A DNA stretch of 64,000 nucleotides. Origin: Simmondsia chinensis. Lineage: Eukaryota; Streptophyta; Magnoliopsida; Caryophyllales; Simmondsiaceae. How positions within the stretch are numbered: the first letter of the stretch is position 1; each line of letters begins with the position of its first letter. Where the stretch lies: the NCBI GenBank assembly GCA_018398585.1, contig JAGTTD010000007.1, positions 9,761,320 to 9,825,319 of the forward strand, read 5' to 3'. A model generated the notes under the pieces. The model was given only the letters and a program-made list of their open reading frames with translations. It was not told where the DNA came from and searched no databases. Positions 18,201 through 64,000 of the stretch are shown here, in pieces. Both the position numbers and the translations under genes were made by a program.

Positions 18201-21200
18201 CTTATCTTCTTCCTTGATTGAACTAATTCCGAGCACAATGCATTCATTTGATCATTGGATGTTGAACATCCTCTTTTCGTTAGCTCTCCTCTGACCCTGC
18301 TCACTTCTGATGGTGTAACTCCTTGTCCATACCCTCTTACTCTTCCATTGGCTTCATTTCCCATCAACTTACGATAAACATGAGTTTCCGCATCTTTAGT
18401 TGCCTCGGAAAAAGATTGTTCCCCTGTACAGTGAAATACCATATCTGATGCCTTATCCTGCATAATTGATCAAAGAAATAAGTAAATGGTTGAATGTTTA
18501 ATATATGAATAAAGTATGAAAGAAAGGAAGATATGTAGTTGAACAGACCATGAATTGCTTAGATGACGCATCAGGATAAGTACCATCTTTCGAAGCATGA
18601 CAAATCCCGTACCACTCTATATTTCCAGGTTTCCTATTGTTTTTTGTTATCTATCATTAAAAAGAAACAATACTAATTTCACTTCAATAATAAACAAATA
18701 ATTTATCGAATTCATTTACAACAACTCACTCATCGAAGAAGTTTGAACAAAGTTCTGTTAGCAAGGATTTAATGTCAGGTATACAATGGAGATCATAACT
18801 TAGAAGAGGAGATAAAGCTTATAGAAACCTTGTTTATGCAGATATGGGTGGTGGTTCACTACTGCAGGCATCTTTTTTGTAATATGTTCCGACGCCATTC
18901 ATCCTCTAATATTGCGTATGTTTTTGACCCAGTTATATGCGGATGTAGTTGGAGGCTTCGTGATCTTTTGCCAATCTTAGAATAGTTCTGTCAAAATCAT
19001 TTCAAAAACATCAACCCTAGACCACTACATAAAAATGATTCAACAAAGTAAATACATAAGGAACTAAATTGCCTCATTGTCCTCATTTGCATCCACCCTA
19101 GACCCAGCATTTGGATCGCTAAAAGAAACCTCATCAACTCTATCTGAAGGCAAGCACTGGGGGTATGCCTCGTCATCTGAACTTTCCAAATTGGAGCCTA
19201 ACCGATAAGAATCTCTTGGCTTTGTCCTTACTACATGTTCCCAACCTATGTCCCTCTCATCTTTAACATAGAACACTTGATTTTCCTGAGATGAAAGAAT
19301 GAAGAGATCATCTTGCAACCTTTCACCGGTGTGTGCTAGGTTAGTGAAGTTCAATAAAGTAAACCCTCGTTTATCTCTCTTCAATCCACAATGTGTTCTT
19401 ATGTCCACCCAGTCACAACGGAATCGCACAACTTTGTAATCTGCATAATAATCCAACTCAATAATATTCGTGATCTTCCCATAATAAAGCTTACGATCTG
19501 CTTCAACAGAAACACCAGAATTTTGAGTTTGTCTATGTCTATCTGGACATTTAGTGTGAAATCTATATCCATTGATGATAAAAGCTTTCATTCTTTTAGC
19601 AACATTATTGGGACCCCGAACAAGAGCCTTTAGTACATTCCCTTCTTCATTACTTCCATCCAAATGGGCCACCTACAATATTATAGAATCTTATAAGAAT
19701 GTAGTTATCTTAGCAATTTTATTACATGACATATATTTACCAATAGTTAAATAACATTACCATTGTTTTAATATATCCGGGAAATTCTTTTGATAACCAC
19801 CTTTCCTTAATCCTATCATTGGCCCGTTTAGGACGGAACTCTCTACACTTATCTTCCAAAGACACGCTGCACATCAACTTTTCAAATTAGCTCATCTCAC
19901 ATTTTCAATTTTATTATTAAGAAAAAGAAAAGCATGTGTCAAAAACTAACCTACGCCACTTGCTAATTACATCATGTTGGAGAATAACAAAACGATGTGC
20001 TTGTTTCAAGCTTTTGTCATCTGAAGTAACAACTTCGACCTTCCCAATTGAACGACTAGCAATATTAAACAAGTATTTGTCCATATCAAGGATACTATCA
20101 TCATTCCTTCGTGAATGATTAAATGCAGTCTCTACCCCATCAAAATATCTTGAACAAAAAGTGAGACATTCTTCTGCAATATAACCTTCAGCCATTGACC
20201 CCTCGGGTTGTGCTCTATTACGTACATATGCTTTTAAGCGGGCCAAAAACCTTTAAAAGTGAACAAAATTAACAATTTCAAAAATATGAATTGAATTTAA
20301 ACTAATACTATGACAAATCATTTATTACCTTTCTATTAGATACATCCATCTATATAGCACAGGTCCACCATGTTTTGCCTCCTTTGCTAAGTGTATAATC
20401 AAATCAACCATTATGGTAAAAAAACTAGGAAGAAAGACCTTCTCCATGTGGCATAATGTGCTAATTGCAGTAGCCTCCAATTTATCGATTTGTGGAATGC
20501 TAAGCTCCTTTGCACACATGGATTTGAAGAAAGACGATAACTCAGAAACTAAATTCACAATATCAGAATCCTTTGCGGCCTTTAATGCAATCGGAAGTAA
20601 GTCTTGCATTAGAATATGACAATCATGACTTTTGAGGTTGAACATTTTTCTCTCTTTCAAATTAACACACCGAGAGATATTAGATGCATATCCATCAGGA
20701 ACCTTGATACGTTTCAACGCTGTCAACAAGCGAGTCTTCTCATGAGGTGACGTGGTATAATATGCATTCGGTATGGAATACTTACCATTTGGCAAAGGGA
20801 CTAAATGAAGATGAGACTTAACATTTAGCAGTTCAAGGTCTTTCCGTGCCTTTAAATTGTCTTTACTTTTCCCTTCAAGATTCAACAAAGTACCAAGCAA
20901 ATTATCACAAACATTCTTCTCTATATGCATTACATCTAGATTATGGCGGAGAATGTTGTACTCCCAATATGGTAAATAAAAAAAAATGCTTCGTTTTTTC
21001 CATATTTGTACATCATCCCTCTCATCGACCTCTACACCAATTCGACCCTTACCATATTGGAAATTTGTTCCTTCCCGTTGTCTTAAAACATCTGTGCCAG
21101 ACGTCGTATTTGGAGCACATCCTCTCTCTACTGTCCCATCAAAATTATCATTGTCATATCGAAAAGGATGATTATTTGACAACGACTTACGATGACCCAT

Positions 21201-24200
21201 GTAGCAAAACATGTGTCCGTTTTCTAACCAAATGGCATGAGTTGACTTGGCACAACTTGGACAAGCAAATCGACCCTCCGTATTCCAACCGAACAAATTT
21301 GCATAAGCAGGAAAATCATCTATAGTCCACATAAGAGATGCTCGCAATTTGAAATTTTGTTTAGCAAAGGCATCAAATGCATCAACTCGCTCCCATAACG
21401 CTTTCAACTCTTGTATTAGCGGTTGGAGATAGACATCAATATCCATACCAGGAGCCTTATCACCCGGTATTATCATCGAAAGAATGATTGAGGTTTGTTT
21501 CATACACAACCAAGGTGGAAGGTTATAGGGGATCAACAATACTGGCCAAACACTATACGTTGTGATCATTAACCGAAATGGATTAAAGCCATCACTAGCT
21601 AGTCCGAGTCTCACCGACCTCGGATCAAAAGCAAAATCAGGATACCTAGCATCAAAGTCCCTCCATGCCAAAGCATTAGCTGGATGTCTCAAAATTCCAT
21701 CTTTAACACGACCATTGTGATGCCATCTCATATCCTCTACTACTTTAGATGACATGTAAAGCCTTTTCAATCTCAAAATCAAAGAAAATAACGTAACACC
21801 TTAGCAGGCCTTTTCTTTTTTGGCTGCCTCTCTATTTCTTGTGATGTCTCAACCACATTATCTTCTTGACTATTTTGCCATCAAGATAAGCCACATACAT
21901 CACACATTTCTTCATTCATTTTATCAGCCCAGTATAGCATGCAATCATTAGGACAAGCATCAATTTTGAAATAGCTAAGACCTAGATCTTTGGTCATCTT
22001 TTTGGCATAGTACTAAGACGATGGGAATGGACCAATTTGAGGAAATGTGCTGATTAATAGTTCAAGCAAAATGTCAAACATTTTTGCAGGACAACCAAAC
22101 ATGCATTTCAAGTGGAGTAGGTGCAAAATAAAGGACAATTTTGAATATCTAGAGCACCCAGAATAAAGCTCTTCTTTAGCTGCCTCTAGTAGTTTAAGAT
22201 AAGGATTTTCATCACTAGAATGCATTTGAGGTTGATTTTCATGTAGTGGGTCATCATGATTATACCCTCCAATTTCATCCATATTGTCTTCGATTCCAAC
22301 TCTAGGTTCAGTCCTCAACATTTGATCATTGATCCCAACTGTATCTTGCAGTAGCCCCTGAATATCAACTGGCTCTATGACATGTTGAGTAGAATGTGAG
22401 ACTTGATTAAAGTGACTTTGATGTAAACTTAGGGAACTATTAATAGAATGACTTATCTTCTCCCCATGAACCACCCATTCTGTATAACCAAGTAAAAACC
22501 CATGCCACAGAATATGTTGCCGAATTATATTTTTTGGCCAACGCTTATGGTAATTAAGTCCACATTTTCGACATGGGCATTCTATATCTTGGACACCGGG
22601 TGCATTACTTTCGGCAAATTGAATGAATTGTTCAATTCCTTCTATATACTCCTTACTCAAACGTGGTTTATCTATCCAACTTTTATCCATTTCATGTATC
22701 TATTGAAGTTCTGTAAACAACCAAATGAAAAAAAATATAAATTATATTATAACTGAGCATTATCAATGTGATTATATTGAATGACTACAAATATTTCTTC
22801 CATTTCGACTACTATAAGATAATATAATCACATAAGTATAAATTTAAACACTAAACAGAAAATTTTCATTCATTTATCACAAAGACACTACCATAACATT
22901 ACTAATAATCAATTAACTTTCCAAATAAACACTAAAACAAAAACAAAGATAAAATGAAAGGGAAAGGAAAATGTTATTTTGTAGCAATACACTTGAATGA
23001 ACAACAAAACTAGTTAAAATCAGTAAACTCTAGTTGCAAAAAAGCTACAAACTATAAAGATCAAGATGTTTACATCTACTACAACAGTTATCTAGTTCTA
23101 GGTAGCCATTTCTAAGACTTCACACATTCCACATGCACAAGTCAACAATTCGATGTAGAACGTAATGACAACAAAATCAAACCCTTAATCAACAACAACA
23201 GCAACAAACCCAGTGCCTCCAAGGGCTCCCGCATAAGCAGGGTCTGGGGGGGTAGGTGTACGCAGCCTTCCCCCTTCAGGGGGCTACCCAGAAGAGAGGC
23301 TGTTTCCGAGGACCCCCAACCTGAAATGCTGGTCCGCAGCATAGAGCATGTGACCTGGCAGCAAAAGAGCAACAAAGCATGAGTAGGGCAAAACATACGA
23401 CGAGCAAAAACAACACACTCGAAGCAAACCACATCAAGCAGAAAAGATAAAATAAAGATAAGGATAGAGATACAGACAAGTAGGCAAGTAGCAGCTCATG
23501 AGAGCAAGTACACAACCTACGTGCGCCAAGAGGATGCCAAGGCCTAGCACTAGAAAGCTCGACTACCCTACTCCAACTGGAGCATCTATTGCCCCTATGC
23601 TAGCCCTCCATTGGGCCCTGTCTAAGGCCATCTCCTCCTGAAGGTTTAGGTGGGTGAGGTCTTGTCAGATCGTCTCCAGCCATCTCTTCTTTGGCCTGCC
23701 TCTTCCTCTTCTGCCTAGTGTAGTAAGAAGCTGTTCACATCTCCTTACTGAAGCGTTGTTTGGTCTCCTTCTAACATGTTCGAACCACCTCAAACGTTGC
23801 TCCCTCAATTTATCTTCAATGGAGGCTACGCCCAATTTGCCTCTTATGACATCGTTTCTGATTCTATCCTTCCTTGTGTGTCCGCACATCCACCTCAGCA
23901 TTCGCATCTCCGCCACCTTCATCTTCTGTGTGTGCTCTTGTTTCATCGTCCTGCATTCCGCCCCATACGTCATGGCTGGCCTTACAACCGTCTTATAGTA
24001 TCTTCCCTTTAGCTTCAAGGGGAACTTTTTATCACAAAGTACCGCGGAGGCGATCCTCCATTTATACCATTCCGCTTTAATCCGGTTGTTCACATCCTCG
24101 TCCACTTCGCCGTTGTGCTGTAACATGGACCCCAAGTACCTGAATCAACACAAACCACAAAATTAGGCCCTTAATCAACTAAAAAAAAATAAAAATCAAA

Positions 24201-27200: not shown

Positions 27201-29614
27201 TGTGTTTTCTAGAAAATTTGGAAGACCGGCTTTTTCAAGGAAAAAGCTTCTAAGAAAACTTGGATTATCTAGAAAGTGAGCAGATCTGTGCTCTAATAGT
27301 CTCCAATCTGCTTGTAAGGCCTGAAACAACTTGTGGTAACATCACTTTTTGTTTGCAGAATGGGCTTAAACCAACCTTTTTCACTTTATATAAAAGGTAA
27401 AACGCATGATTATTAGGTAGTTCTGACGCTTAGCTCTGTTGCTTTTGAATATCCCCTCGAACCCCAACTGACCTAAAAGAAAGAAAAAAAAGAGCCATGA
27501 ACATGTGCAGCAGGCTATCAATCGCAAGATGTTGTTGGACGTTAGCTTTGCCTTCTGTACGAAGAGTGAAAAAGATCATCTCAAACACATGAAGAAGAGA
27601 TGAGCAACTTGAAATTTGTCTGATTACTGCTTCTAAACAGGTTCCCACGAATTAGTTGTAAACTTCACTTAATGGCAATGCTCAACCTGTTGTCGGGGAC
27701 CTTGATCCAAATATGTAGTCAGGTCCTGTACTGTTGAATTAGTTGTAAACTTCCGTGTTGCATAGTATTGTTACCTTCTGTGTTTTTTTTTTTTTTTTTT
27801 TTTAAATGTATGTATTCTTTTCCAAATTCTGGAAATATTTTAGTAAGTTTGTCCATAGTTGCAAAAAACTCCTAAAATGCTAACATTTCATACTTAGAAA
27901 CACGATTCAGCGTTTCGAAGTCAAATTCGCATTTCCAACATGTATCAAACTCGACGGGAATACGATTCAAACAATCATGAAATCTTTCTGATAAGAAGAT
28001 ACATATTAGATGATTGGTTGACTAATTATATCATTTGATCTAAAGAATGAATAAATTGTGCGGTTATGTTGAAGTCAATTTTCTTAATCTTATTCATTGG
28101 AATACTCAACTTTCTTCGTTATTGCTTAATATTGACTTTGTTTCTATATTTATTTTTTAACGCCTCAATTAATAACGTTTCATTTATTTTCTTTATCTAA
28201 TATATAGTAATATAATTGTTCCCTCTGCACTCCCTACCTTTGAAATTTCTCGCTTGCTTTCTGTTCCTGCTTCGTACAACTATGGTTTGTCCATATAGCT
28301 GGCATTTTGGCCCAAAGAAAAACACAAGTAGAAGATAAAAACAGGAAAAGAAAATCCGCATACTTGCTGCATTGCTTGTTTAAAGTCAATGGAAAACAAT
28401 GAAAAATGCAAGGACAATGTGGATGTTTGCTGTATTGATGGTTTGGACAAAAGGCATGTAGAAATGCTAACAGATTGCAACTGTGATGCAGAGAGACACC
28501 AATGGACTGACTGTTGAGAATAAAGAACTCAAACTCCGACTGCAGGCCCTGGAGCAACAGGCACAACTCCGAGATGGTAATTAATATTCCTACAAATACG
28601 GGCATTGCATTGTGAATATTTTGGACTTTGTATGCACATTATAATAGACTCCTCAAGTGTTTCTCACATGCAAAATAAAGACAGTATGTTTAGCCAAGCT
28701 TCCTTATCGGGGGGGGAAAAAAACACACTTTTTACAATTGAGGATATTTGGCTTGAAAAGAAAAGTGTTTCTAAATAGAAACAAAAGTTGTTTTTAGAAA
28801 ATAGTGCTTCTTCTTTAAAGTAGAAGCACAAGTACAACTGTTCCAGTGCCACAAGGGCTCCTGCCGAAGCAAGGGTCTAGGGGGTGAGATGTACGCAGCC
28901 TTATCTCCTTAGGGTGTTACCTTAAAGAAAGGCTATGTCCAAGTACAGTAAAAGCACAAGTAAAAATTAAAAGTTTTTGGACAGAAATACTACATTGATA
29001 GTATGTTTTCACAGTGCTGCTTTTTTTTTAAAAAAAAAAAAAAAAAAAAAAAGGGTTCAGGCCCAAAGCCTATTTGGCTGAGGTTCTTCATTTGCATGTT
29101 TGGAATGTACATTTAAAAAGGCAGCCCAACAGATAAGGTAGATTCAGATATATGTAGCCTTTACCGGAGGCAGATCTAGATATGCTGCAGTAGGGATAAG
29201 CCAGTGCCTTTCAGTTAATACCTAAAAGGATAATAATATTGTATTCTTATTGCTTTATCTCCGATTAGCCCTCGTGAGAAGATCAATTGCAGTCTCTCTA
29301 CCTGTTTCTACCCTCTAATTGCACACTTTCCCTTGCCTTCCACCTTTTCCCCCCTCACCCCGCTCTCCCTGCTGTTGCCACGTGTCTCTGCCTTCCTGCT
29401 TTAGTAAATTACACAATGACATAACACTATCAACAACAACAAACCCAATACTTGCAAAGGCACTTGTCGAGGCGGGGTCTAAGGAGGGTGAAATGTACGC
29501 AACCTTACCTCTGCCAGGTGCTATCCTGAAGGAAGGTTGTTTCCAAAGGTCCCAACCCTAAATTATTTTTATTATGCACCAAGAAATTTTTATTATAGAA
29601 ATTATTTTTGTTCT

Positions 29615-40140: not shown

Positions 40141-40327
40141 ATAACTGAAATGCTAAAATGGCCTAGTTGGTTGAGGATTCTGGAAAGGAGGATGTAGAGG
40201 GAATGTTTTGAGGTTCTGAAGTTAATTGTGGTGAGGAGAGGAAGAAGCAAAACAGCTCCTTAGGACGACGAACTACCTATGACCGGATTCGCTCGACAAT
40301 TCACAATACTCAGGTCTGTTATTCTCT

Positions 40328-41040
40328 ACAACAACAACAAAAACAACAACATTCCCAATGCCTCAAGGGTTCCCACAAAAGCGGGGTCGGGGGGGGGGGG
40401 GGGGGGGGGGGGGGGGATGGTGGTTTGATGTACGCAGCCTTCCCTCTTTAGGGCGTCAACCTGAAGAGAGGCTGTTTCCGAGGACCCCCAACCTGAGAGA
40501 TATGTCTTCATCGCATCATGGTGACCTGTGAGCAATAGGGCATGAAAGCAAAAAAGTAAGCCATAGCATAAAATGAGCAATACAAAGCATAACGCCCTAG
40601 AGGAGACTACGAGACAAAACCTTCCCTTCAAGGTAGCTAGTATAAGCAAATAGGCAGATAATAGACAGATAGACATATAGGTAGATAGGTGCAGCCTAAT
40701 AGGCCCATACACCTATGAACCCATATGTAGCAGAATAAGCAGCGGTGTGAGGCCGCTACCTCTGCTACCCCTATGCTAGTCCTCCCTCGAGCTCTAGCTC
40801 TATCTAAGGCCATCTCCTTCCGTGGGTTTAGGTGGGTGAGGTCCTGCCGTACGACTGCAGTCCTCCCTCCTTTGGCCTGCTTCATGCTCTTCTTCCTAGC
40901 GTGGTACAAAGCTGATCGCATTACCTGACTGGAGCAGTGGTTGGTCTCCTCCTAGCGTGCCTGAACCACTTCAAACACAGCTTCTTCATTTTATATTCTA
41001 TCTTCTATCTAGGCCACGCCGCACTATGCCACATACCACA
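40328..41040 (-). pseudogene. Second LINE 3' end (duplicated C-terminus plus tail)
   Basis: 40741-41040 repeats, in degraded form, the region already present at 41147-41400 ([20 protein letters not shown], then VRQDLTHLNPRKEMALDRAR). The 3' UTR and canonical tail follow (TGTACGCAGCCTTCCC, GAAGAGAGGCTGTTTCCGAG). It has the same orientation as the main LINE and lies inside the same target duplication. Confidence 0.7.
40389..40416 (+). repeat. 28-nt poly-G tract in a LINE tail
   Basis: The tail module normally has a short G run after GCGGGGTC. In this copy it is expanded to 28 G. Confidence 0.9.
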
Positions 41041-41146
41041 TCCCTGATGGCCGCCCCTGGGACCGCAAGTCCATATGCCAAAATTGTGGAATAGGCATAC
41101 CGTAGAGTCATGGCACTAGATCGAGCTTACGAGTGGTCAGATGCTC

Positions 41147-41383
41147 CTAAACCGCTACATCGGATACGCCTATCCTAATCTTCCACACAGCTCTGTCTAG
41201 AGCCATCTCATCATTTAGGTTGAAATAGGTGAGATCCCGTCGAATTGTCTCCATCCAGCTCTTCTTTGGCCGTCCCCTCCCTCTCTTCTCGTCTGCTATG
41301 TGGAGTTGTTCGCATCTCCTGACAGGTGCAGTGGTGGGTCTCCTTCTAACATGCCCAAACCACCGCAGACGTTGCTCCCTCAA
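41147..41383 (-). pseudogene. LINE C-terminal domain
   Basis: [40 protein letters not shown] and [20 protein letters not shown] match the C-terminus of the copies at 23665-24135 and 30510-30650. This conserved block of the family is likely involved in RNA or DNA binding, which is inference. Confidence 0.8.
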
Positions 41384-41426
41384 CTTATCTTATATTGGGG
41401 CGACACCCAGTTTACTTCCAATGACC

Positions 41427-42764
41427 TCATTTCGGATCCTGTCCCTCCTTGTGTGTCCGCACATCTACCTTAGCATTCTCATCTCCGCCACCCTCAATCT
41501 TTTGAGTTTGGTGACACTTTACAGGTCGGCACTCTGCCCCGTAACACATAGCTGGCCTCACTACCGTCTTATAGTAGTTACCCTTTAATTTTAGAGGGAA
41601 TTTCCTATCACACAGTATCGCCGCTGCCCTTCTCCATTTGTGCCAACCCACTTTAATCCTTTTGTTGACATTTGCGTCCACTTCGCCATCATTCTGCACC
41701 ATGGAACCCAGGTATTTAAAGCATGCTTTCTGAGGTATGTGCTCTAATCCAATCCGTACAACTTCTGCGCTTGGCGTGGTAGAGGTGCTGAACTTAAGTT
41801 CCATATATTCTGTCTTAGATCTACTGAGCCTTAAACCTTTCGATTCTAGGGCCAACCTCCAAAGTTCTAATTTTTCATTCACCTCCACTCTAGACTCACC
41901 CACTACGAGTATGTCGTCCGCGAAAAGCATGCACCAAGGTACATCCCCTTGGACGTGCCAAGTGAGCTCGTCCATCACCAAAATGAACAGAAAGGGACTC
42001 AAGGCTGATCCTTGATGTACCCCTACAGTAATGGGAAAAGCGTTTGTCTCCCCTTCCGTAGTGAGCACACTAGTTTGAGCATCTTCGTACATGTCCTTGA
42101 TGACTCGTATTTAGGACTCGTGGATGCCTTTCCTCTCCAAGACCCACCATAGGACTTCTCTCGGCACTCTATCATATGCCTTCTCCTAATCAATGAAAAC
42201 CATATGAAGGTCCTTCTATCTATCTCTGTAGTACTCTATGGACCTCCTCAGGAGATGGATGGCTTCTGTTGTTGATCTACCTGGCATAAATCCAAATTAG
42301 TTCTCTGAGACTCCTGCTTGGTGGCGAAGCCTTCCTTCTATGACCCGCTCCCATAGTTTCAGAGTGTGGCTCATTAGTTTGATTCCTCTGTAATTGGCAC
42401 AACACTGAATATTGCCTTTGTTCTTATAGACAGGGACTAGTATGCTCTTCCGCCAATCATCAAGCATCTTTTTCCCCTGGAGGATTTGGTTGAATAATTC
42501 AGTCAACCATCTTATACCCGTTTCTCCAGCACATTTCCATGCCTCAATGGGTATACCGTCAGGGCCGGCTGCTTTACCCCTGCCCATCTTCCTCAATGCT
42601 GCCCTAACTTCCTCGGGTCTAATTCTAGTGTAGTGGTCGTGGGACTCTTGCACTGTTGTTGTTTGTAGAACTTCTGGGGGAGTAACTGTATCTCCCTTCT
42701 CATTGAACAGATCGTGGAAGTAGGACTTCCACCTAGCTTTGATTTGTTGCTTGTCAACGAGCAC
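41427..42764 (-). pseudogene. LINE reverse transcriptase domain, interrupted
   Basis: 42297-42764 gives GRGKAAGPDGIPIEAWKCAG, ILVPVYKNKGNIQCCANYRG and IKLMSHTLKLWERVIEGRLR. After a TAG the strand continues FGFMPGRSTTEAIHLLR. 41427-42092 gives VGVHQGSALSPFLFILVMD and MLFADDILVVGES with the catalytic FADD, then KYLGSMVQNDGEVDANVNKR. At least three stops split the domain (just below 42297 and near 42111-42225). Confidence 0.88.
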
Positions 42765-43213
42765 TTGTCCTGCTGCCCCCTTTATGCACCTTACTTGGTC
42801 CAGGTCTCTAGTCCTCCTTTCCCTTGCCTTTGCAATTCTATAGAGGTCTCTAGCTCCCTCATCTGTATCCAGCCTTTTATAGAACTCCTCAAAGGCTTTG
42901 GATTGTGCGTCTCTAACTGCTATCCGAGCTTCCTTCTTAGCCTGTTTATATTGTTGTCTCTTGTCTTCATCTCCACTACGATCCCATTCCTTGAAGCAGT
43001 CTCGCTTCGCCTTAATCTTCTCTTGGACCTCCCTACACCACCACTAGGTCTCTTTGTTGTTTGGTGCCCTACCTTTAGATACGCCTAGGACTTCTCGTGC
43101 CACATCTCTTAACTTTTGGGCTACTTGGTTCCACAGGTGGTTTAAATCTCCCTCACACTTGTCTCTAAGCTCAGCCTCAACTCTTTCTTTAAAGATTTGA
43201 GAGTTTTCCCCCT

Positions 43214-44014
43214 TCAGCTCCCTCCATCGCGTGCGTGGCTGTGATGGTTTGATGGCTTTCTTGTTCTTCTCTTGATCCTAATCGCAGCACACACTACTCT
43301 GTGTTGTGTTGAGAGGTCCTCCCTAGGGATAACCTTGCAATCTTTTTGAGTCCTCATTCTTAGTAATATGTAGTCAATCTGGGTCTTTGCTCCACCACTC
43401 CGATAGGTGATGATGTGGTCCTCACACTTTTTGAAGAAGGTGTTGGCCACTGTTAACTCATAAGTGACGGCAAAGTCCAACAGAGCCTTGCCCTCATCAT
43501 TTCTCCTTCCATAGCCAAATCCTCCGTGGTGGGATGCATAACCGTCTGTGTTCGCTCCCACGTGCCCATTAAAGTCCCCTCCAATCACAACTTGTTCGCT
43601 CTGGGATATCCCCTGCATTGTTAGGTCTAAGTCCTCCCAGAAACTGGCCTTCTCCTCCTGTGTATGTCCTATCTGTGGCGCATATGCACTTATGATGTTT
43701 AACATCTCCCCACCTAAGACTAACTTGATGCTAATAATCCTCTCGCTAGTCCTAGTGACCCCTACTACTTCGTCCCTCAGGGAGCTATCCACCATAATAC
43801 CTACCCCATTTCTCCCTCTTACTTGGCCCGAATACCATAATTTGTAGCCTAACACATCCCTTGCTTTTGTGCCCACCCACCTTGTCTCTTGAATACACAG
43901 GATGTTGATCTTTCTCCTAGCCATCATTTGGGCCACTTCAAAGCTTTTCCTGGTTAGCGTGCTAACATTTAATGTCCCAATTCGCAGACTCCCCTCACCT
44001 CGTTCCAACCCCAT
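43214..44014 (-). pseudogene. LINE AP-like endonuclease domain
   Basis: This 266-codon open stretch begins MGLERGEGSLRIGTLNVSTL. Endonuclease/exonuclease/phosphatase landmarks follow in order: GTLNV, CIQETRW (catalytic E), ISAYAPQ, VVIGGDFNGHVG (D-x-N), AKTQIDYILLR (D) and LSTQHRVV (H). The enzyme nicks target DNA to prime reverse transcription. This is the best-preserved part of the element, with all listed catalytic positions present. The reading frame stops soon afterwards, so it does not continue into the RT. Confidence 0.88.
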
Positions 44015-52830: not shown

Positions 52831-52973
52831 TGAATTGTTTAACCAATCGAGTTGATTTGATTCAATTTGGTCGAATTGCTGTTCACAGGCATCAATTGGA
52901 AGTTGATTTACTTTGGTTGACTTAGTAGATCTTGTTGCTGTGGTTGCTGTTAAGACTCAAGATTCTTGTTCCA

Positions 52974-54134
52974 ATGGCTGGAGGAATGACTACCAGGTCT
53001 GCAGCAGCTCCAAACGCTAATGGTAATGTCAATGCAGCAACAACTGCAACTACATACGCAGATGTTGTTACTGGTGCTGAGCCTCAAGCTAATGTCGAGA
53101 CCAAACATGAGGAGCAGTTTGATCGGATATGGAATCAGATGCAGAACATGATGACTATGTTTCAACAGAGTCAGGCAAACATTAATCAGAAATTCGAGAG
53201 CCAATCACAACAAAATGGAGGCATTAAGGGGCAGATTAACAAACAACAACAATCTACGAATGCAGGATTGCTTTATGCTGCTAGTCAGCTTGAAAGGCCT
53301 CGTAATCGAGCTCCTACTTCTGTTCCACCACCAGATCCTACAAGTTTGCTTGTAAGACCTCAAACGCCAGCTCCTGCATCGTTCCCTCCACCTGATTCCA
53401 CATACAATGGAGAAGGTTCAGCAAATTCCAGGAACTACGGCTACAGGCAGCCTCGAGTAGAGCTGGAACCATTCGATGGAACAATGCCTCAATCATGCAT
53501 CAGGAAATGCGAGAGGTACTTTCGATTCTATAACAGTTCTGAGGCTGAGAAAGTTGAATTAGCAGCTATACATCTGCAAGGAGAGTTGGACGTCTGGCAT
53601 TACAATCTTGTTCGAAGTAAACCTTTGATAACTTGGACTGAATTTGAAAGAGAATTGTGTGAGAGGTATGGTGACGAGGACATCAGTGATGTTGTGGACA
53701 ATTTTAATAAGCTGGTGCAAACTACAACTATGAAGGAATATATGTCAAGGTTTGAGAATCTCAGGGCAAGGATGTTGGCTATGTATCCTGATGCACCCGA
53801 GGCATATTATGTTTTGAGTTTTATCAGTGACTTGAAGCCAAAAGTAAAGAATCTTGTCAAGGCATTGGATCCTACTTCCCTGTCTCAGGCTTACTTGAAG
53901 GCAAGGGGGTTTGAGTGCACAGTGCTGGCTTCAAATGAGGCACCTAGAGTAAGAAACACTCAATTTGGAGGTCCCTCGCACAAGTCAGCTCCAACTGGCA
54001 ACAACCCATTGATCACGGAGGAGAAAAGGCTGCAAAAACTTTGTTTCAAATGTAACCAAAGATATTTCTTTGGTCACAAGTGTGATCCTAAGTACCTTAT
54101 GTTTGTTTCTGGATGTGAGTGTTTTTGGATGTGA
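52974..54134 (+). CDS. gypsy Gag
   Basis: The open frame is 386 codons from the ATG of MAGGMTTRSAAAPNANGN. The frame extends upstream without a better start. A Gln-rich N-terminal third is followed by the capsid domain, with CIRKCERYFRFYNSSEAEKV, DVWHYNLVRSKPLITWTEFE and MKEYMSRFENLRARMLAMYP, then a zinc knuckle KLCFKCNQRYFFGHKCDP (CCHC). Gag assembles the particle and binds element RNA. The frame ends shortly after the knuckle by a stop. The protease continues in another frame from 54070, so a frameshift mutation is likely. This is the only long intact domain left in the element. Confidence 0.88.
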   Translation: MAGGMTTRSAAAPNANGNVNAATTATTYADVVTGAEPQANVETKHEEQFDRIWNQMQNMMTMFQQSQANINQKFESQSQQNGGIKGQINKQQQSTNAGLLYAASQLERPRNRAPTSVPPPDPTSLLVRPQTPAPASFPPPDSTYNGEGSANSRNYGYRQPRVELEPFDGTMPQSCIRKCERYFRFYNSSEAEKVELAAIHLQGELDVWHYNLVRSKPLITWTEFERELCERYGDEDISDVVDNFNKLVQTTTMKEYMSRFENLRARMLAMYPDAPEAYYVLSFISDLKPKVKNLVKALDPTSLSQAYLKARGFECTVLASNEAPRVRNTQFGGPSHKSAPTGNNPLITEEKRLQKLCFKCNQRYFFGHKCDPKYLMFVSGCECFWM

Positions 54135-58252: not shown

Positions 58253-59593
58253 TCAAGATACTTGGCTTTCATTCTTTACATCACAAAGCTCATCGATATC
58301 CATCTCGGAATCATTAGTTACTAAATCATCATATAGACCACTTGTCTCCTCTTGCTCAAGCTCCATGCCGAACCTCTCATGATCAGAGTCACTCTTGAGC
58401 AAGTCCTTATCCTCCAAATCGGATAAATCCTCAAAAACCTCAATCCTCTTCTTCCTCCCTCTATACCCAGTGAGATTCTGAACCTTCTCCCTCCAAAGAA
58501 CCAAGGGGCACTTCTTGATCAACTCCGAACCATCATACGCCTCATTCATAAACACGTGAAACCTCTTACCCCTCTCCGAAACATAAAATATCCCAAAATG
58601 CTTCAGCAACAACCTCATCAACTTCTGAGGCATCACAAGCTCTCGTCGAAAATGAGTGAGATGATCAGTAACCAATCTCTTCTCAAGGGTAAAACAAAGC
58701 AATTCGTGCATCACCGCCACTGCCCTCTTATCAAACTCTTGTGATCCGGCCTTAAGTTCCCTTGAATCAGCATAAGGAGACAGATACTCCCTTTTCTGAA
58801 AATTATCAATCTTCCCTCCATACCTATAAACCTCCTTATAATTAGGTGGAAACTTCATTGGAAATGCTAGCTTTAGAATCCCATCACAGTGAAGCTCATT
58901 CCCTTTACTCCCTACCACTTTTTTCTCCAATTCAGTAACAGCCCATTCCTTTTTCCACTCAACAAGCTCCAAATACTCATTATCATCATCGTCATCCTCA
59001 CCCTTAACAACCCTAAAGAGATCTGGATATTTGTGCACCCAGTTCGTCCTGAAATCAATTGGCAACCCAAAATCCCTCCTGAAATGGGCAACCTTATCGA
59101 CCCGCAACCGTTTATCCACAGACATCATCAAGAACCTGGTCACATACTCCGCTGCCTCATCCGAATGCCTCTCAATTTCTCTCTCCTCCTCCTCAACAAG
59201 CTCTTCTGCCTGCTGGGTCATCCCAACCCACAAAGTTCCCCTTCTGTCCTTGCACAATTCAAACAATTTTGGGGACTTACGAAAAAAATCAGAGAATTTG
59301 TGGGGTTTGGGGAGATTTATCTGGCGTCGGTATTGCTCAAGGTCTCTTACAGGGATTACATGTTCTGGCTCAGATTTTAGGATTTCCATAAGGAAGTGTA
59401 TCCTGGAGAATATCTTCCATTTCTCAGTGGCAATTTCAAGGTCATGGACTCGTTTCTTCTTGCTTCGATCTTGAACTCTCTTGGTTGTCGTCATTCCTCG
59501 ATTCTGGATGAATAATTGAAAGGTGAAGATTGTATATCTTGCTGAGTAGCATTGCATGTACGGTTTGATTTTGCCGATTGAACGTAGAGACAT
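58253..59593 (-). CDS. WTF9: PORR-domain organelle RNA-splicing factor, WTF9-like, 446 aa
   Basis: This is an intact single-exon gene. I place the start at the ATG at 59593-59591 (MSLRSIGKIK); the open frame extends 11 codons upstream without another ATG. The N-terminal 33 residues are basic and Ser/Tyr-containing, suiting an organelle transit peptide. From residue 34 come MTTTKRVQDRSKKKRVHDLE, INLPKPHKFSDFFRKSPKLF, YVTRFLMMSVDKRLRVDKVA, FPMKFPPNYKEVYRYGGKID, LSPYADSRELKAGSQEFDKR, FTLEKRLVTDHLTHFRREL and FGIFYVSERGKRFHVF, which are PORR-family blocks. The C-terminus is acidic and Ser-rich. PORR proteins bind organelle RNA. WTF9 is needed for splicing of mitochondrial rpl2 and ccmFC group II introns. 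The overall match to WTF9 rather than to chloroplast WTF1 or RPD1 is my recognition from memory and should be treated as likely, not proven. Confidence 0.88.
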   Translation of the reverse strand: MSLRSIGKIKPYMQCYSARYTIFTFQLFIQNRGMTTTKRVQDRSKKKRVHDLEIATEKWKIFSRIHFLMEILKSEPEHVIPVRDLEQYRRQINLPKPHKFSDFFRKSPKLFELCKDRRGTLWVGMTQQAEELVEEEEREIERHSDEAAEYVTRFLMMSVDKRLRVDKVAHFRRDFGLPIDFRTNWVHKYPDLFRVVKGEDDDDDNEYLELVEWKKEWAVTELEKKVVGSKGNELHCDGILKLAFPMKFPPNYKEVYRYGGKIDNFQKREYLSPYADSRELKAGSQEFDKRAVAVMHELLCFTLEKRLVTDHLTHFRRELVMPQKLMRLLLKHFGIFYVSERGKRFHVFMNEAYDGSELIKKCPLVLWREKVQNLTGYRGRKKRIEVFEDLSDLEDKDLLKSDSDHERFGMELEQEETSGLYDDLVTNDSEMDIDELCDVKNESQVS

Positions 59594-59709
59594 TGCAGTG
59601 TGAGAGTGATGATACTCACAGATCACAGTTACGGCACACGCGTTTCAAATGGAGAGAGCGCGTATACACCCATTTTACCTAGTTGACCTTGAATATTTAA
59701 TTATTTGTC
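59594..59709 (-). promoter_or_regulatory. PORR gene 5' leader and proximal promoter
   Basis: This 116-bp stretch lies between the start codon and the tandem duplication. Its distal part is AT-rich (TTAATTATTTGTC). No canonical TATA box at a fixed distance was identified. Confidence 0.35.
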
Positions 59710-62117: not shown

Positions 62118-62324
62118 ATGTTAGATTCTAGTTTCCATATGACCTCAAATAAGGCCAACTTCATTTATTATAGACCACTGAATGGGGAAAGGGTGTTATT
62201 AGGAGATAATAAGGGCTGTAAAATTGCTGGAATTGGATATGTTAAGATTAGATTAACTAATGGTACTGTGTACATCCTTGAAAACGTGAGACATGTGCCC
62301 GACCTACGTACCTCATCTCTTTAG
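62118..62324 (+). pseudogene. copia protease-like segment
   Basis: MLDSSFHMTSNKANF aligns with the copia protease start, where relatives have a D-S/T-G triad followed by C/A and HM. Here the triad is collapsed (DSS, a short deletion), so catalysis is unlikely. VLLGDNKGCKIAGIGYVKIR and LENVRHVPDLRTSSL match the rest of the domain. Confidence 0.78.
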
Positions 62325-62329
62325 GTCAG

Positions 62330-63135
62330 TTGGATCTTAGAGGACTATCTTTTAGGGCTATGAATTCAAAACTAAGAATATTGAAAGGATCCTTAGTTAT
62401 CCTAAAAGGAGAACTTAAAAATGGTCTCTATATGTTGAAAGATCAGATAGTCTCAGGAGAGTCACATGCTGTAGTTAAAACAGTTCCTATTGATTTGTGG
62501 CAGAGACGCTTAGGTCATGTGTTTGAACGTGGTTTATGTGAACTATCAAAACGTGGCATACTGTGTGGTGATTCAATTTCAAAGCTAGAATTACGCGAAT
62601 CTTGCATTTTTGGTAAACAAAATCGTTTGGCATTTAAAGTTAGAAAACACACAACAAATGGACCACTAGATTATATACACTCAGATTTGTGGGGACCAGC
62701 TAAGGTCAACACATTAGGTGGAGCCTCGTATTTCTATCCATTATCGATGATTTTTCTAGAAAAGTCTGAATTTTCTTAATGAAACATAAAGATGATTGTT
62801 TCCCAACTTTTGTTAGATGGAAAAATTAGATAGAAAACTTAACAGGCAGAAAAATAAAGATTTTAAGAACAAACAATGGATTAGAATATATAAACTTCGA
62901 GTTTGAAGATTTATGTACTAAGAACGGTATCAAATGCCATAACATTGTTAGGGGGATGCCACAACAAAACGGGTTTGTAGAACGAATGAATGGAATCTTA
63001 CTAGACAACGTTAGGTGTATGTTGTTTGCCTCGGATTTAGGAAAATAGTTTTGGGGGGAAGCTGTAAAGACAGCCTGTTATTTGATTAATAGGACACCCT
63101 CCACTGGTATAGACTTTAAGACACCTGAAGAAATA
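62330..63135 (+). pseudogene. copia GAG-pre-integrase and integrase core
   Basis: DLWQRRLGHVFERGLCELSK and the CIFGKQNRLAF zinc-binding block lead into LDYIHSDLWGPAKVNTLGGA (first catalytic D). Beyond a frameshift near 62745, LRTNNGLEYINFEFEDLC replaces the usual SDNG with TNNG, and GMPQQNGFVERMNGILLDNV supplies the E. The second aspartate therefore appears lost. GEAVKTACYLINRTPS precedes the insertion. Confidence 0.85.
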
Positions 63136-63442
63136 AAAAAAAGGAATATACCCAGTGCCTCAAGGGCTCCCGCCTATGCAGGGTCGGGGGGGGGGGCGGA
63201 TGTACGCAGCCTTCCCCCTTCAGGGTGTTAACCTGAAGAGAGCTATTTCCCAGTGCCCCAACCTGAGGGTGAGGACTTCCCAGGAGATCACCCATCCTGG
63301 TACTACTCTAGCCCAAGCACGCTTAACTTCGGAGTTCTCATGGGATCCTATGACAGTGTGTTGGTGCCCTCTTTGGTGTCTTAATGAGTGTATTTGGTTA
63401 GGGAAATATGGTGCCCTCTTTGGTGCCCTCTTACTCTCGCCC
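63136..63442 (-). mobile_element. 5S rRNA-headed retroposon with RTE-type LINE tail
   Basis: The 307-bp insert in the copia integrase is flanked by a perfect 17-bp duplication, AGACACCTGAAGAAATA, at 63119-63135 and 63443-63459. Read on the minus strand it has a short 5' part with three AGAGGGCACCA-like repeats, then about 96 nt of 5S rRNA sequence (63366 to 63271), then the RTE-family 3' tail (63268 to about 63142) ending near an A/T run. Head and tail are in the same orientation. This is the plan of a 5S-derived SINE, or of a single template-switch chimera made by the LINE machinery. Confidence 0.85.
63271..63366 (-). pseudogene. 5S rRNA-derived segment
   Basis: The minus strand reads GGATCCCATGAGAACTCCGA, AGTTAAGCGTGCTTGGGC, TAGAGTAGTACCAGGATGGG, TGATCTCCTGGGAAGTCCTC: plant 5S rRNA from roughly its second quarter to near its 3' end, with few changes. 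The internal pol III promoter A box (AGTTAAGCGTGCTTGGGC) and C box (AGTAGTACCAGGATGGGTGA) are both recognisable. The first 30 or so nucleotides are more diverged. It is not a normal 5S gene, since the 3' end runs into LINE tail sequence and no T-run terminator follows. Confidence 0.9.
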
Positions 63443-64000
63443 AGACACCTGAAGAAATATGGTCAGGAAAACCTGCTAACTAGTCCAACCTTGGGGTATT
63501 TGGTTGCGCTGTGTATGCCCATCAATTTGAGGGAAAGTTAGAACGTAGAGCTATCAAATGAGTGTTTCCAGGTTACCCTGATGGTGTTAAGGACTATAGA
63601 ATTGGTATGAAAGATGGCAAGAGGATGAAGATTATTATAAGTAGGGATGTCACAATTAATGAGCTAGACATGCCCCACTTAACTCAGAATAATAATCAGA
63701 TACCTAAGAATAAAATTTATGAACCTGATAGGTATGAATTTGAGATAAATCCACCAAAACCCATCTATCAAACTAGACTTGAACCTGAACCTAAACTTGA
63801 ACCTTAGCCATAACATGATAATAGTTTAGAAACTGAACATGTAGAACAAAATAAAGAAACATTAAGTGTTGATAGGAGCACTGATAATGAGATTATATCA
63901 AAAAACAAGCTAGATAACTATAAACTAGCAACAGATAGGATAAGAAGGGATATAAGACCCCCCAAATAGACTAGGATATGCTGATTGTATAGCATATGCC
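63443..64000 (+). pseudogene. copia integrase C-terminal region
   Basis: Copia resumes with the duplicated target, then shifted-frame text equivalent to the P-x-N/L-R-V-F-G-C block. VFPGYPDGVKDYRIGMKDG and KRMKIIISRDVTINELDM at 63562-63807 are the region linking integrase to RT (F-x-G-Y, then S-R-D-V-x-F/I-x-E). Acidic linker sequence continues to the window edge. Confidence 0.8.

Follow-up and report, generated by a model that had tools for sequence, protein, structure and literature searches.

Judged from its sequence, the minus-strand segment 63377-63136 of the window (the whole 64-kb stretch of DNA analysed here) is a SINE with a 5S rRNA head, an RTE-type LINE tail and a 7-T end. It belongs to a real and abundant plant SINE family with this 5S head and RTE-type tail, in which it is a young member with an unusual, apparently templated 5' junction. 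The copies we compared show a composite of 5S and LINE sequence that is present many times with one junction, with different target-site duplications (TSDs) of 11–20 bp and with promoter motifs intact in most of 30 copies; they contain no internal terminator and end in T when young or in (TTG)n when old. We consider it very probable that the insert belongs to a SINE family with many copies, which RNA polymerase III (pol III) would transcribe from an internal 5S-type promoter and for which an RTE-type LINE protein would supply the reverse transcription.

The Rfam model of 5S rRNA (RF00001) matches 63377..63260 on the minus strand from model position 1 to 120 with 53.7 bits (E 2e-08), and no other gathering-level Rfam match was found in the 64-kb window; this bears out the 5S-derived head proposed in a preliminary description of this DNA. 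ARAGORN found no tRNA genes in the 64-kb window; the head is 5S, not tRNA. The head begins at the place of 5S nucleotide 1, and the copy matches the family model with 270 bits over 63377-63143 (nhmmer). Both internal promoter boxes, described earlier as legible, are intact (AGGATGGGTG and AAGTTAAGCG), with one base off the family consensus between them (GGGCTAGAG for GGGCGAGAG). The LINE tail follows the head in the same orientation, as had been claimed, at 63267-63143 on the same strand as the 5S part. That strand is the minus strand, which corrects the preliminary description, and the head-tail junction, formerly put near 63268-63271, lies close by at about 63268/63267. The terminal T-run is the sole run of at least four T in the window copy.

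The flanking duplication is perfect over 17 bp (AGACACCTGAAGAAATA), just as first described. As for the bounds proposed for the insert, the 3' one stands, whereas the 5' one has to be moved: the element starts at 63377 and not at 63442, the 65 nt in question being a junction filler. When the flanks are joined, a Copia-like reading is restored (...DFKTPEEIWSGKPAN, then stop); the surroundings of the insert are a decayed Copia-type element, with a GAG-pre-integrase domain in the reading frame 62282-62779. The coordinates of the features are collected in Table 1.

Table 1 Features of the 5S-headed SINE and of related LINE copies in the window.
Feature	Position	Strand	Basis
Target-site duplication, element 5' side, beyond filler	63443..63459	.	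perfect match to 63119-63135
Junction filler, 65 nt, outside element	63378..63442	.	mosaic of sequence from the SINE 5' part and from the target flanks
5S rRNA-derived head, family consensus 1-110	63268..63377	-	Rfam RF00001; nhmmer
AAGTTAAGCG, intact, in what we take to be the A-box region of the 5S internal promoter	63320..63329	-	sequence
C-box AGGATGGGTG, intact, canonical form	63289..63298	-	sequence; motif as printed in a passage of PMC10853983
LINE-derived tail (RTE type), family consensus 111-235	63143..63267	-	matches to window LINE 3' ends
Run of 7 T at the 3' end (element sense), resembling a pol III terminator	63136..63142	-	sequence
Target-site duplication, element 3' side	63119..63135	.	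17/17 identical to 63443-63459
3' tail of another LINE copy, TTG-repeat end	23194..23324	-	best full-length window tail match, 81% over 134 nt
Decayed RTE-type LINE copy C, same tail	about 40326-44014	-	Pfam domains, tail match
LINE copy C, endonuclease part	43214-44014	-	LINE copy Pfam domains: PF03372, PF14529, PF00078
LINE copy C, RT part	41427-42110	-	LINE copy Pfam domains: PF03372, PF14529, PF00078
LINE copy C, 3' tail	40339-40497	-	tail match

Elsewhere in the window we observed a 463-aa ORF with a PORR domain at 58253-59644 (minus strand), whose protein is closest to those of Nepenthes (75%) and Ancistrocladus (74%), with Chenopodium, Amaranthus and Beta next (70–72%); this suggests a host within Caryophyllales that belongs to none of these genera. 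Transposase_21 (tnp2), DUF4218 and Transpos_assoc domains are encoded at 20325-21800 and 22013-22699 (minus strand), a set that we take to be that of CACTA-type DNA transposons, and a frame with Ty3_capsid and Retrotrans_gag domains lies at 52929-54134 (plus strand).

A search of the plant's own 831-Mb assembly (35 contigs), with 40 scored among 6,296 first-look candidates, listed 41 matches, namely the window copy and 40 others. The same 5S/LINE junction is spanned in all 40 other listed places at 86–94% identity, which makes the window insert a family member and settles in favour of a family the choice that the preliminary description had left. These 40 matches start at query positions 65–85 and end at 318–332, and most listed matches start at query position 83, which is window position 63377. 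Because no other listed match reaches query positions before 65, the filler occupying 18-82, the start of the element is placed at 63377; ten of the 40 start at 65–81 through short similarity of their own flanks. Exact 5S-core patterns were not found in the viral and genome contig collections.

Abundance was estimated from a random sample of twenty 10-kb stretches (200 kb) from 16 of the 35 contigs, in which nhmmer found eight head-plus-tail copies and none with the head only. Extrapolation from these 200 kb gives 33,256 copies (Poisson 95% interval 14,357–65,527), or about 0.9% of the genome, a figure from a small sample in which each copy is counted as full length. A scan of 358 kb including the window, run with models of the young and the old form and with 29 seed copies set aside, returned 34 non-seed places: 11 with head and tail (window included), none with the head only and 23 with the tail only. 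None of the 18 tail-only nhmmer matches starts before model position 99; 15 start at 107–129, and two short matches start at 161 and at 189.

The window copy and 29 of the next best scorers form a set of 30 loci, which is biased to young copies because the best scorers were chosen. Their consensus, 235 nt long, runs from ACCAAAGAGGGC to GGGTATGTTCC and is followed by a T-rich end; the median divergence from it is 3.0%. The Rfam 5S model matched 20 of the 20 loci L002-L021, every one from model position 1; among the seven of eight random copies that lie in the 14 random stretches scanned (of 20), the gathering score was reached by four, the three missed being diverged. The best copies carry the A, IE and C boxes of a type 1 pol III promoter that mark SINE3 elements: 28 of the 30 have an intact C-box AGGATGGGTG, 27 an intact AAGTTAAGCG and 22 an intact TTGGGCGAGAGTAGTA. 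A run of four T upstream of the 3' tip occurs in 0/30 best copies, so a pol III transcript from the head would read to the element end. We also noted two SINE copies in the same orientation, about 0.2 kb apart, at L013 (1501-1745 and 1924-2175), and an extra (T)TTGTTCC unit ahead of the T-run at L021, L022 and L026, as if the end had slipped during priming.

Target-site duplications were scored with one mismatch allowed, at a threshold passed by mismatched flank pairs in 3 of 583 trials. It was passed by 23 of the 30 best loci, with 23 distinct sequences of 11–20 bp (median 17), 19 of which are flush with the first base of the head. The copy count suggested in the preliminary description has thereby been carried out: the junction is shared in 40/40 places, and the duplications of the 23 loci are all different. 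The window copy fails the automatic test because of its filler, its own TSD being 17/17; with this copy counted, 24 of the 30 loci have a duplication of 11–20 bp of their own. Six loci (L004, L006, L007, L010, L022 and L030) are without a clear TSD, at 8 bp or less, and an old copy in the flank of L010 has a 15-base repeat on both sides (read by eye). Within the random sample, duplications of 15 bp were found at the young L032 copy, 13 bp at the old L033 copy, 11 bp at the old L042 copy and 12 bp at L040. At L046, where the model match lacks the 5' end of the copy, a 13-bp repeat lies 8 nt ahead of the start of that match; the old L032 copy shows nothing beyond a 7-nt match distant from the tail, and no TSD was found in the random-sample copies at L035 and L041.

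The eight random copies diverge from the young consensus by 5.5, 6.7, 18.0, 18.1, 19.4, 21.1, 22.0 and 31.7%. Four of them (in L032, L033, L035 and L042), together with the copy in the L010 flank, represent an older form, and the consensus of these five starts with AGGGTTCATTTACCAGGCACTAATACACCGG, runs through the 5S 3' end GTCCTCGTGTTGCCAACCC into the LINE tail and keeps almost all of 5S, from its first to its last bases. The old head is identical to plant 5S at 102 of 119 positions and the young head at 90 of 112, both being compared with a plant 5S sequence taken as reference. The young form has lost GTGTTGC (7 nt) at the 5S end and carries T-runs where the old form has TTG; its first ~12 nt are not 5S-like. 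The old copies of L010, L033 and L042 end in TTG repeats like the LINE, the ends of those in L032 and L035 being cut or decayed, and L040 is an intermediate with a young 5' end and a complete 5S 3' end. Both consensuses carry CATTAG for CATCAG and TACCAGG for TACTAGG relative to this plant 5S reference, and these two common changes argue for one origin; the first site is mixed among young copies (T in 19 of 30, G in 11 of 30). The family has probably been active recently.

Six further places in the window match the tail at 63267-63143 with E values of 1e-3 or better, and a seventh does so weakly; all seven also appear in the nhmmer list, in agreement with the earlier claim of a LINE family repeated in the window. 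LINE copies A and C end in TTG repeats, and plant RTE LINEs are described as ending in (TTG)n or (TTGATG)n (passages of PMC3747384). The endonuclease part of copy C, which is of the APE type, gave 509 protein matches, of which the 120 listed are led by Solanum and Nicotiana. Many of those listed, including butterfly and moth proteins, are named craniofacial development protein 2-like, a label that we take to be usual for RTE/BovB endonucleases, and one is named LINE-1. We call the LINE RTE-type on match names and shared domains rather than on a tree. Because about 125 nt of tail are common to the SINE and the RTE-type LINE copies, an RTE protein would be the mover of the SINE; the tip of the young SINE (T-run) differs from the LINE tip (TTG repeats). 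Tail-only copies B, E and F were considered as SINEs and rejected, having no convincing TSD, and tail-only copy D has an 11-bp direct repeat. A LINE tail-only piece of ~100 nt at 28843-28944 (minus strand) has the 11-bp direct repeat TACTTGTGCTT on each side, and the tail of copy C contains a run of ~28 C, in a variable C-tract that is here common to SINE and LINE tails.

In the mechanism we favour, pol III would make SINE RNA from the internal 5S-type promoter, an RTE-type LINE protein would recognise the shared 3' tail and copy the RNA into DNA, and insertion would proceed by target-primed reverse transcription. At the window locus, the 5' end would have been joined via several short template switches between the 5' part of the element and the target flanks, leaving the 65-nt filler. 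Read in element sense, this filler consists of eight pieces that tile it without gaps, neighbours overlapping by 0–5 bases: three from the SINE consensus (positions 64-74, 5-17 and 1-16), four from the right target flank (ACCATATTTC, TTTCCCT, AACCAAATAC and ACACTCATT) and one from the left flank on the opposite strand (TTAAGAC).

We compared the filler with the SINE consensus and the flanks within 160 nt, using 3,000 dinucleotide shuffles and 1,000 random window 65-mers as controls. Matches of at least 7 nt cover 65/65 nt, against a mean of 22.5 and a maximum of 61 in the shuffles and a maximum of 58 in the random 65-mers. Coverage is 57 at both 8 and 9 nt, which 0/3,000 shuffles reached at either length and which was reached by 0/1,000 random 65-mers at 8 nt and 1/1,000 at 9 nt. 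The last 34 nt, compared with the host flanks alone, are covered over 34, 26 and 26 nt at 7, 8 and 9 nt, values reached by 0, 1 and 0 of 3,000 shuffles, respectively. Two or more direct 10-nt matches, as in the filler, were seen in 1 of 20,000 shuffles (10 of 20,000 when matches in either orientation counted); of 5,000 random windows, 0 had them. We read this patchwork, known from a single locus, as the product of successive short template switches during the joining of the 5' end. The alternatives, an unrelated insertion of later date at 63378-63442 or an old extension at the 5' end of the copy, are quite unlikely: although the filler is known from one locus only, its complete coverage is equalled by no shuffle and no random 65-mer (with a single tie at 9 nt), it sits exactly between the TSD and the element start, and, of its best 20 blast rows, one is a 12-nt match and the rest correspond to this locus or to SINE 5' ends. 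The maize LINE Cin4 likewise has extra sequence between the TSD and the LINE 5' end that overlaps target and element; it is another LINE, however, and its extra sequence measures 0–17 bp, as against 65 nt in eight pieces here (passages of PMC10490952).

The origin of the composite itself could be read in other ways. A single 5S/LINE template-switch chimera outside any family would suit a 64-kb window without another 5S match, as well as the protein search, in which 37 of 44 candidates matched an antisense reading of the insert, all via the 5S part and none with the LINE junction; this negative says little, because such readings are rarely annotated. With the junction spanned in 40/40 other listed places and eight copies in 200 random kb, a chimera is refuted by copies with different target duplications and retains next to no probability. 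5S pseudogenes are common in plants, and scattered 5S rDNA pseudogenes, or spreading satellite units, that happen to lie beside LINE insertions would be a further source of such sequence, yet the constant junction, the fixed ends, the TSDs and the absence of any head without a tail in the sample render this extremely improbable as well. An LTR fragment of a Cassandra-type TRIM fused to a LINE tail would account for the first ~12 nt of the young head not being 5S-like, and plant Cassandra LTRs do carry a conserved 5S core (passages of PMC10853983). We nevertheless regard this origin of the 5S part as very improbable: the old consensus keeps nearly the whole 5S from first to last bases, the duplications of 11–20 bp directly flank the 5S start and the LINE tail, the 34 non-seed places include 11 with head and tail and none with the head only, and PMC10853983 puts 5S mid-LTR, never at LTR ends. 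A 5S segment inside a Cassandra LTR, the case named in the preliminary description as fatal to a SINE, fails at this locus, where the 5S part stands at the very 5' end, is followed directly by the LINE tail and is bounded with it by a 17-bp TSD. Cassandra is set apart here by description, its 5S-part sequence not being found in the text of PMC10853983, PMC7215508, PMC9571286 or PMC4163409.

A real family might also owe its mobility to a LINE other than the window's RTE LINE, one that prefers U-ending RNA. Young copies end in T-runs, whereas the LINE and the old SINE copies end in TTG repeats, and passages of PMC3747384 suggest unidentified poly(U)-reading partners for Au-like SINEs; the ~125 nt of tail in common with the RTE-type LINE copies and the TTG tip of old SINE copies nevertheless make this reading unlikely, and an RTE subfamily ending in GTATGTTCC(T)n would count further against it.

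Au-like SINEs have a tRNA head, and we take their tail to resemble the tail here; the tRNA-derived head of TS-like and Au-like elements is not found in our family, in which the head is 5S. Cassandra TRIMs have a short LTR-type duplication and no LINE tail, whereas in our element 5S nucleotide 1 is the first position, a LINE tail forms the 3' end and the TSDs measure 11–20 bp. What the two have in common is that both are plant mobile elements with a 5S internal promoter (passages of PMC10853983 and PMC10886601). A 5S-homologous head, a LINE-related 3' tail and dispersed copies with different TSDs place the family with SINE3, and its 3' tail is shared with an RTE LINE of the same genome, the clade being given by match names and domains.

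SINE3, the 5S-headed SINEs, have been described in fish, mammals, Lepidoptera and Aspergillus (passages of PMC3747384, PMC8010984 and PMC5063351). According to these passages, SINE3 of fish (PMC3747384), PxSE4 and PxSE5 of Lepidoptera (PMC8010984) and AfuSINE3 of Aspergillus (PMC5063351) resemble our family in their 5S head and A, IE and C boxes, and some of these families also have a LINE-related tail; they differ in their animal or fungal hosts and in their tails, which are (TGA)n, (ATGT)n or CR1-type. PxSE4 and PxSE5 are ~63% identical to Bombyx 5S, compared with 86% (102/119) for the old plant consensus against the plant 5S reference. The likeness is close to Ped-1 of the springhare, which combines a 5S head with the tail of BovB, an RTE-clade LINE (Table 1 of PMC3747384, cited for that entry), although the host is a mammal, the origin would be independent and the two are likened by description, not sequence.

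Among plant elements, the tobacco TS SINE, paired with an RTE LINE in passages of PMC3747384, has ~100 nt of RTE LINE tail and a TTG-repeat end as in our old subfamily, with a tRNA head where ours is 5S; the three plant SINE/LINE pairs in those passages (TS, ZmSINE2 and ZmSINE3) are tRNA-headed. Au-like SINEs are plant SINEs with a short T-run end as in the young subfamily, their partner LINE being listed as "not determined" (entries in Table 2 of PMC3747384). Among the best-ranked titles of searches in the CC-licensed literature, none was recognised as describing a 5S-headed plant SINE, and the family is undescribed in plants as far as could be checked there. A passage of PMC3095306 speaks of 5S-homologous SINE3 sequences "including plants", the reference given there being the Cassandra paper.

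Pairing between the ends of the head is possible in four forms (5S, the best old copy, the intermediate and the young form), with different bases: the stem is GGGTGC/GCACCC in 5S, AGGGTT/AACCCT in the old form and GAGGG/CCCTC in the young form, where it uses partly LINE-derived bases. Own 5' and 3' ends make the best of the 24 arrangements of the four forms; two single swaps (5S 5' with intermediate 3', and intermediate 5' with young 3') equal or surpass it. In two of four old copies the ends pair no better than shuffled ones (976 and 1,337 of 2,000), and the stem is present in the fold of head 1-122 and absent in that of head 1-125 and of the whole element. The possible co-variation of helix I is a lead, not a result. 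We offer only tentatively, and with considerable doubt, that the family may be a SINE3-type lineage born within plants and long-lived (two subfamilies and an intermediate), whose RNA head would have been kept as a closed 5S-like fold.

SINE-Finder seeks tRNA-type A and B boxes and AnnoSINE drops candidates nearly identical to Rfam RNAs (passages of PMC8825457), so that families with a 5S head, even abundant ones, might escape detection or be masked as rRNA; at ~0.9% of the genome, by our small-sample estimate, the family would be a practical annotation matter. It would also be a plant parallel to Ped-1, and within this one SINE it connects an old form ending in TTG with a young form ending in T. 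The 5S promoter of Cassandra has been proposed to derive from a 5S SINE (a passage of PMC10886601), and the family makes this origin testable. If the head is indeed kept as a closed 5S-like fold, 5S-binding proteins (TFIIIA, L5) may escort the SINE RNA, perhaps to the ribosome making the RTE protein, which would parallel SRP proteins with Alu, and such elements would be the donors once guessed for Cassandra's 5S promoter.
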